Source: an uncultured Alphaproteobacteria bacterium (GTDB lineage: Bacteria > Pseudomonadota > Alphaproteobacteria > Bin95). Taken from it: a DNA stretch of 33,533 nt. Below the pieces are notes generated by a model, which did no database searches, was not told the origin of the DNA, and saw only the letters and a list, made by a program, of their open reading frames with translations. The stretch is from positions 1-33,533 of the forward strand of contig CALAHN010000148.1 in NCBI GenBank assembly GCA_937891825.1. The letters run 5' to 3'. This document shows, in pieces, positions 28,986 through 30,729 of the stretch (within the stretch, counting starts at the first letter, position 1; each line of letters starts with the position of its first letter). The translations under genes were made by a program, and so were the position numbers.

Positions 28986-29897
28986 ATGACGATGTATGCC
29001 AGCTTGCCAGAACGCAGCGACGCCCGCCGGGTCGTGATCGACGTCGAGAGCGCTTGCTCCGTGCTTGGGGGCGACACGCAGCGGACGGCGATGGTCGTGG
29101 CCTCGCCCCATTCCGGCGATCGCTACCCGATCGATCTGCTGGCCGCGAGCAAACTCGACGCCGCCGCTCTCCGCCGGTCGGAGGACGCCCATGTGGATGT
29201 GCTGTTCGGCGGGGCTGTCGATATCGGCGCGCCGCTCCTGCATGCGCATTTCCCGCGCGCTTATGTCGACGTCAACCGGGAAGCCTACGAACTCGATCCC
29301 TTGATGTTCGACGCGCCATTGCCGCCCTATGCCAAGACGCGCAGTCCAAGGGTCGCGGCCGGCTTGGGCTCGATTCCCCGCGTCGTCGCCGCCGGCGTGG
29401 AAATCTACGACCGGCGCCTCAGCTTCGCGGAAGCCGCGGCCCGGCTGGAGCATTGCTACCGGCCCTATCACACGGCGCTCCGCCGGCTCGTGAAAGGCAC
29501 GCGGTCGACCTTCGGCGTCTGCCTGCTGGTCGATGCGCACTCCATGCCCTCCGCCGGGTTGAGCTGCAGGGACGACCCGTCCTTCGGTCAGATCGATTTC
29601 GTGCTGGGCGACAATCATGGCCACGCGGCCGACCGGATCTATCTGGACGCCGCCAAGACCTGGCTCGAGGGGCGGGGCTACGCCGTCGCGGTCAACGATC
29701 CCTATCCCGGCGGCTTTGTCACCAAGACCTATGGCGCGCCATCGGACGGCGTGCACGCGCTGCAAATCGAGGTCAATCGCGCGCTTTACATGGATGAAAT
29801 GACCTATGCCCGCGTCCCGTATTTCGAGACGCTGCGTCAGGACATGACGGATCTCCTGGGGCATCTGGCGAAAAGCATTCCGGCAAACGCCGCCTGA
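28986..29897 (+). CDS. N-formylglutamate amidohydrolase family protein
   Basis: The 303-residue protein has the FGase pattern: MVVASPHSGDRYP with HSG at residues 42-44, RSEDAHVDVLFGGA, YVDVNREAYELDP, LLVDAHSMPS (DAHSMPS at 183-189), and NDPYPGGFVTKTYG with a final ALQIEVNRALYM. Members hydrolyse N-formyl-L-glutamate in histidine degradation, though many act on other N-acyl amino acids. No hut genes are nearby, so the physiological substrate is open. It lies 10 nt after an EamA permease. Confidence 0.9.
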   Translation: MTMYASLPERSDARRVVIDVESACSVLGGDTQRTAMVVASPHSGDRYPIDLLAASKLDAAALRRSEDAHVDVLFGGAVDIGAPLLHAHFPRAYVDVNREAYELDPLMFDAPLPPYAKTRSPRVAAGLGSIPRVVAAGVEIYDRRLSFAEAAARLEHCYRPYHTALRRLVKGTRSTFGVCLLVDAHSMPSAGLSCRDDPSFGQIDFVLGDNHGHAADRIYLDAAKTWLEGRGYAVAVNDPYPGGFVTKTYGAPSDGVHALQIEVNRALYMDEMTYARVPYFETLRQDMTDLLGHLAKSIPANAA

Positions 29898-29966
29898 ACG
29901 GCGACCTCCCGGTCAGCCGGACAGGCCATGCGCTCCCGCTTTTCTCGAGCGTCCCGAACTTTGGGC

Positions 29967-29996
29967 AAAAAAAGGGGCCGCGTTTGCACGCGGCCC
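29967..29996 (-). terminator. Rho-independent terminator of the sRNA
   Basis: On the minus strand an 8-bp perfect stem GGGCCGCG/CGCGGCCC (29996-29989 and 29982-29975) with loop TGCAAA is followed by C and seven T residues (29973-29967). It may also end regB-regA read-through. Confidence 0.85.
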
Positions 29997-30049
29997 AAGT
30001 TCAGGGAGGAAACGCCCAAGATGGGCACGAAACGGCGAACCGTTCCGTC
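29967..30049 (-). ncRNA. ar8/MmgR-type small RNA candidate
   Basis: Read on the minus strand, an ~83-nt transcript is predicted with three stem-loops. A 9-bp stem with a TTCG loop at 30048-30027 (one G-U pair) is followed directly by GCCCA-TCT-TGGGC at 30026-30014. The unpaired motif TTTCCTCCCT (30012-30003) comes next, then a terminator hairpin GGGCCGCG/CGCGGCCC (29996-29975) plus T7. The CCTCCC core is anti-Shine-Dalgarno-like. TTTCCTCCCT is, as I recall, the conserved core of the alphaproteobacterial ar8 family (MmgR in Sinorhizobium, which limits PHB). A promoter is present. Family assignment is from memory, not a search. Confidence 0.72.
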
Positions 30050-30054
30050 CTCTT

Positions 30055-30083
30055 TATATGATATGGTGCAGCGCAAAAATCAA
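30055..30083 (-). promoter_or_regulatory. Promoter of the sRNA
   Basis: On the minus strand, -35 TTGATT (30083-30078, preceded by C as in many alphaproteobacterial promoters) and -10 CATATA (30060-30055) are separated by 17 nt. Transcription would start near 30049, just before the first stem-loop. Confidence 0.55.
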
Positions 30084-30171
30084 GAGGCTTTTTCCGCCGA
30101 TCCAGAATAAATTTCAGTGAAATCAGGCGCGTAAAATGCTGCGGCGCAAAATGCCGCAGGTCCGGACCGCA

Positions 30172-30729
30172 TTATTCCCTTGGCGCGTGCTTCGCCAGGA
30201 TGCGTTGCAGCGTGCGCCGGTGCATGCGGAGTCGCCGGGCAGTTTCCGAAACATTGCGGTCGCATTGCTCGTAAACCCGTTGAATATGCTCCCAGCGGAC
30301 GCGGTCGGCGGACATCGGCATGTCGGGCGGCGGCGGCGAGCCGTCTTCGGACGCGAGCAAGGCGGCTTCGATCTGATCGGCGTCCGCCGGCTTCGGCAGA
30401 TAGTCGATCGCGCCAGCCTTCACCGCGGCGACGGCCGTCGCGATATTGCCATAGCCGGTCAGGATGATCGCGCGGACGTCCGGCCGCTCCGCCTGGAGGG
30501 CTGCGACGACGTCGAGGCCGCTGCCGTCGCCAAGGCGCAGGTCGACCACCGCATACGCTGGTTTCAGATGCGCCATTTGCAGGCCCTGGGCGGCGCTTTC
30601 GGCCGTGTGCACTTCATAGCCGCGTCGTTCCATGGCGCGGGCCAGCCGTTTCAGAAACGGCAGATCGTCCTCGACGATCAGGAGCGTCTTCCCCGGTTCC
30701 GGCGTGACGCCATTATTATCGATCGACAT
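30172..30729 (-). CDS. regA: Redox response regulator RegA/ActR
   Basis: The 185-residue protein has a receiver domain with acidic pocket ED/D (residues 20-22) in TLLIVEDDLPFLKRL, phosphoacceptor Asp63 in VVDLRLGDGS, TGYGNIATAV with the switch Thr, and Lys113 in YLPKPADADQ. A Pro-rich linker precedes a Fis-type helix-turn-helix, NVSETARRLRMHRRTLQRIL. The size, the linker and Asp63 match RegA/PrrA/ActR, which control photosynthesis, respiration, nitrogen and carbon fixation genes by redox. It overlaps regB by 14 nt, with GGGGAG as its ribosome-binding site inside regB. Confidence 0.95.
   Translation of the reverse strand: MSIDNNGVTPEPGKTLLIVEDDLPFLKRLARAMERRGYEVHTAESAAQGLQMAHLKPAYAVVDLRLGDGSGLDVVAALQAERPDVRAIILTGYGNIATAVAAVKAGAIDYLPKPADADQIEAALLASEDGSPPPPDMPMSADRVRWEHIQRVYEQCDRNVSETARRLRMHRRTLQRILAKHAPRE

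Follow-up and report, generated by a model that had tools for sequence, protein, structure and literature searches.

The window, a stretch of 33,533 nucleotides from an uncultured Alphaproteobacteria bacterium, carries a small RNA (sRNA) gene on its minus strand at about positions 29967-30051. The gene is confirmed, and the evidence supports its product as a member of the αR8/MmgR family. The initial annotation had held that protein-only annotation would miss the gene, and it is indeed an unannotated copy of a known family, which restrains carbon storage in related bacteria. We consider it rather probable that the gene specifies a PhaR-repressed, Hfq-dependent αR8 RNA which blocks ribosome-binding sites through a conserved 10-mer, limiting storage and uptake.

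Each of the elements that had been named on the minus strand is present. The transcript is predicted to be about 81-85 nt long with its start near 30051-30047, a position taken only from the promoter-like hexamers. It opens with a 5′ hairpin of nine pairs and a UUCG loop (30027-30048), recognised from the fold and lying outside the Rfam consensus. This is followed by a second hairpin, GCCC-AUCUU-GGGC (30014-30026), which the model match and covariation identify as helix 1 of the Rfam model, and by the exact 10-mer UUUCCUCCCU (30003-30012), the family's defining anti-Shine-Dalgarno seed (PMC12559287); read from 30012 to 30003 the motif is TTTCCTCCCT. The gene ends in an intrinsic terminator (29967-29996), in which a 9-bp stem (29996-29975) precedes a C and seven Ts running to 29967. 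Folding of 29967-30083 gives a z-score of -4.45 relative to dinucleotide shuffles, none of 200 shuffles being as good. The 10-mer, initially described as unpaired, is largely free in the predicted fold for transcription starts from about 30051 onwards; starts at 30052-30054 would leave it partly masked, because a 5′ GAGG pairs with the CCUC of the motif, whose predicted unpaired probability is then only 0.03-0.13. A plus-strand open reading frame of 60 amino acids does lie across the sRNA (29928-30110), and nothing was found to support it, in agreement with its earlier description as spurious.

A covariance-model search had been proposed as a check on the family call. When the whole window was compared with 4227 families, RF00519 (named suhB in Rfam, described as mmgR) gave 65.3 bits (E = 1.7e-11) against a gathering cut-off of 41, the match spanning the full model (1-77) at 29960-30033 on the minus strand. 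Our own model, R1, which was built from 16 relatives with the window sequence among them, scores the RNA at 81 bits. RF00519 is above its cut-off in all five genomes of the host genus (the host and four mates), and in other genera of the host's family the RNA is absent or represented by a weak match only. Weak αR8-like matches occur about 1 kb apart at one locus of the sister genus G012 (L031, 1495-1578 and 2469-2535; 29.0 and 19.5 bits with R1); no N-formylglutamate amidohydrolase (FGase) gene was found nearby, and these are possibly diverged relatives.

Both the seed and the structure are conserved. The sequence UUUCCUCCC is unchanged in 16 of 16 members of the seed alignment. Among 64 matches, 96.0% of the cells in the two model helices are paired and 109 are double-changed, counts that lean towards the model because the alignment was fitted to it; shuffles yielded 29.4 double-changed cells (0 of 500 reaching 109), and controls with slid partners yielded at most 43, with pairing down to 41-55%. 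The terminator stem covaries in the same 64 matches. Covariation in three stems had been proposed as a check and is borne out for the two model helices; the 5′ hairpin, outside the model, is instead kept in genus mates with quite different sequences. At the position of this hairpin the mean folding z-score over 61 loci is -1.55, compared with -0.14 in control stretches, and a clean hairpin is not seen in every locus.

In most alphaproteobacteria a single αR8 copy adjoins an FGase gene (PMC12559287). Such a gene lies directly downstream of the window sRNA, in convergent orientation on the plus strand (28992-29897; PF05013, E 2e-69), and had been left out of the initial annotation. We collected 80 FGase loci from named genomes by protein similarity, which with the window makes 81 sources. 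An αR8 match was found in 60 of the 80 loci and in the window, that is, in 61 of 81 sources; three of the 60 (L054-L056) come from genus mates that also figure in the genus survey. FGase and αR8 lie on opposite strands and converge in every one of the 61 bearing loci, at a distance of no more than 200 nt in 33 and no more than 800 nt in 51. FGase is the diagnostic neighbour of αR8 genes, usual though not universal.

The putative promoter consists of a -35-like hexamer TTGATT (30078-30083) and, 17 nt away, a -10-like hexamer CATATA (30055-30060), both read from the sequence. The hexamers and the 17-nt spacing that had been claimed are there, and they are a weak match, the weakest element of the gene, resting on position only because the consensus scan does not call them. 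The spacer between them holds a candidate PhaR/AniA-type operator, GATTTTTGCGCTGCACCATAT (30061-30081), also written TGCGCTGCA, which fits 20 of the 21 bases of the published S. meliloti consensus (PMC12542648). A second, distal PhaR-type box, GCATTTTGCGCCGCAGCATTT (30134-30154), also written TGCGCCGCA, lies 73 bp upstream of the first and likewise fits at 20 of 21; just six sites of the 33.5-kb window reach 20/21. The initial coordinates, 29967-30083, take in the sRNA and its proximal promoter, leaving out this distal box. The spacing of 73 bp is equal to about seven helical turns; looping between the boxes is possible. A pair of boxes, separated by 71 bp, is present in two genus mates as well (L014, L018).

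Of 60 homologues, 50 have a box of the form YGCRNYGCR in the 120 nt upstream and 10 have none. The expected number of homologues with a box is 8.0 when stretches are drawn at random from the same loci and 7.6 when the sequence is resampled. Many of the boxes are concentrated some 33-39 nt ahead of the model start. A 2018 paper on mmgR transcription reportedly already mentioned the dyad in other alphaproteobacteria, for which reason we do not claim conservation of the operator as new. Operator-like boxes are both present at the window gene and enriched upstream of αR8 genes, and PhaR probably controls the window RNA.

This arrangement resembles that of MmgR in Sinorhizobium meliloti, where a PhaR dyad lies between the -35 and -10 elements (PMC8401924) and PhaR represses mmgR and binds its promoter in EMSA (PMC12542648). 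The two RNAs have the Rfam family, the 10-mer, the second hairpin and the terminator in common. They differ in length, the window RNA being predicted at about 81-85 nt and MmgR measuring 77 nt, and unlike S. meliloti MmgR the window RNA stands beside regBA and has the second, distal box. Also present in the genome are phaC, hfq, a phasin gene preceded by two boxes, and phaR, which has a box some 50 nt ahead of its start; every part needed for an MmgR-type feedback is thus present. Carbon-storage control had first been suggested from the proximity of regA and acetoacetyl-CoA synthetase. The idea itself is favoured, on the different basis of the PhaR-type boxes, the FGase linkage and phaR, phaC, the phasin gene and hfq; the boxes and circuit genes support a putative storage role better than does proximity to acetoacetyl-CoA synthetase.

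From MmgR and SisA, the αR8 member of Caulobacter crescentus, we infer that the window RNA is repressed by PhaR, binds Hfq, represses targets and affects storage. The sRNA would be transcribed from its own promoter, with PhaR (AniA) bound as a repressor to TGCN3GCA boxes, of which one sits between -35 and -10. As polyhydroxybutyrate granules form they would draw PhaR away, and the sRNA would then be made. Held by Hfq, its single-stranded UUUCCUCCCU may pair with mRNAs at purine-rich Shine-Dalgarno regions, and this pairing would lower translation of the targets and limit carbon storage and uptake. Phasin and storage effects have been shown only in S. meliloti (MmgR), where MmgR is inferred to act on phasins by such pairing (PMC8401924).

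The window RNA might alternatively work mainly as SisA does, that is, as a near-constitutive, broad repressor of nutrient-uptake and metabolic mRNAs that controls storage only incidentally or not at all. SisA has the same 10-mer and is likewise found downstream of FGase (PMC12559287); it represses a broad set of targets through this seed, a mechanism that compensatory mutations established (PMC12559287). In Caulobacter there are four siblings and the sponge CrfA, whereas the window genome has one clear αR8 copy. The target predictions, made with crude gene calling on a sample of about 220 kb of the genome plus the window, singled out neither phasin nor any other mRNA among the sampled starts. 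As a partner for the seed, the start region of the phasin gene is average (rank 75 among 197 sampled starts), which favours the SisA-like alternative and leaves the phasin mRNA unsupported as a demonstrable direct target. Against this alternative, the genome contains only two Plug-domain (TonB-receptor) genes, neither of whose start regions pairs well with the seed, and expression is tied to the storage regulator by the PhaR-type boxes, which lie in the spacer here and ahead of most homologues. We regard a mainly SisA-like role as possible though somewhat doubtful. The sole exact 9-base seed match to a Shine-Dalgarno sequence at a convincing start in the sample belongs to a DUF2459 gene (L047), which was dropped as a target because the match is absent in two genus mates.

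The upstream neighbour of the sRNA is regA, encoding an ActR/PrrA/RegA redox response regulator (30172-30729, minus strand; NF033791 above cut-off). With the sRNA following regA after about 120 nt on the same strand, the RNA could be a processed or read-through 3′ end of the regBA transcript, tied to redox control. The promoter-like hexamers of the sRNA and its conserved boxes speak against such an origin, as does the finding that RegA or RegB stands beside the RNA in only three of 61 loci, namely the window and two genus mates; we consider it very improbable. The stress that the initial annotation had laid on regA and acetoacetyl-CoA synthetase concerned genes that are both real; the regBA adjacency is lineage-specific, and we rejected it as a functional clue because it is confined to those three loci of one genus.

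SorX (RF02784) and BjrC1505 (RF02356) are alphaproteobacterial sRNAs which, like the window RNA, have CCUCCCU upstream of the terminator, and these families score on similar sequence, two other places in the genome matching them; membership of the window RNA in either is already contradicted, and is the least credible of these alternatives, since at gathering thresholds it matches RF00519 alone, SorX giving no match in the window, and since its 10-mer is complete and FGase is its neighbour. A genome-wide search with RF00519 returned one match above the cut-off and two weaker ones of 32 and 30 bits. The weaker two lack the full 10-mer and an FGase neighbour and fit BjrC1505 or SorX equally well or better, though below those cut-offs too, and were not judged clear αR8 copies.

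A SorX-like sRNA in the same genome (contig C89, 173624-173691; L003, 1499-1566, plus strand) scores 40.9 bits with RF02784 against a cut-off of 46.6 and carries CCUCCCUGUU upstream of its terminator. A BjrC1505-like sRNA on contig C43 (L002, 1509-1632, minus strand) scores 39.2 bits with RF02356 against a cut-off of 50 and carries GCCUCCCUG. A tandem RNA at the seed match C43:28414, close to one of the two weaker RF00519 hits, was considered and rejected; the match lies beyond the terminator of the RNA at that hit, and an Rfam scan of L040 found no second RNA there. In three Azospirillum FGase loci (L073, 99-165; L082, 52-118; L085, 42-108) the main match is accompanied, at a distance of about 3.3 kb, by another, weaker αR8-like match.

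The family and its mechanism are already published, and what is new is one unannotated member in a little-known alphaproteobacterial lineage. Mapping this sRNA aids annotation and the study of polymer storage in that lineage, and changes no principle. We see an even chance that the PhaR operator built into the promoter is ancestral and class-wide for FGase-linked αR8 genes, with granule feedback as the original role and the conserved 5′ hairpin as a shared feature. The control by PhaR that has been shown for the αR8 RNA of S. meliloti may, on these findings, extend far beyond that species.
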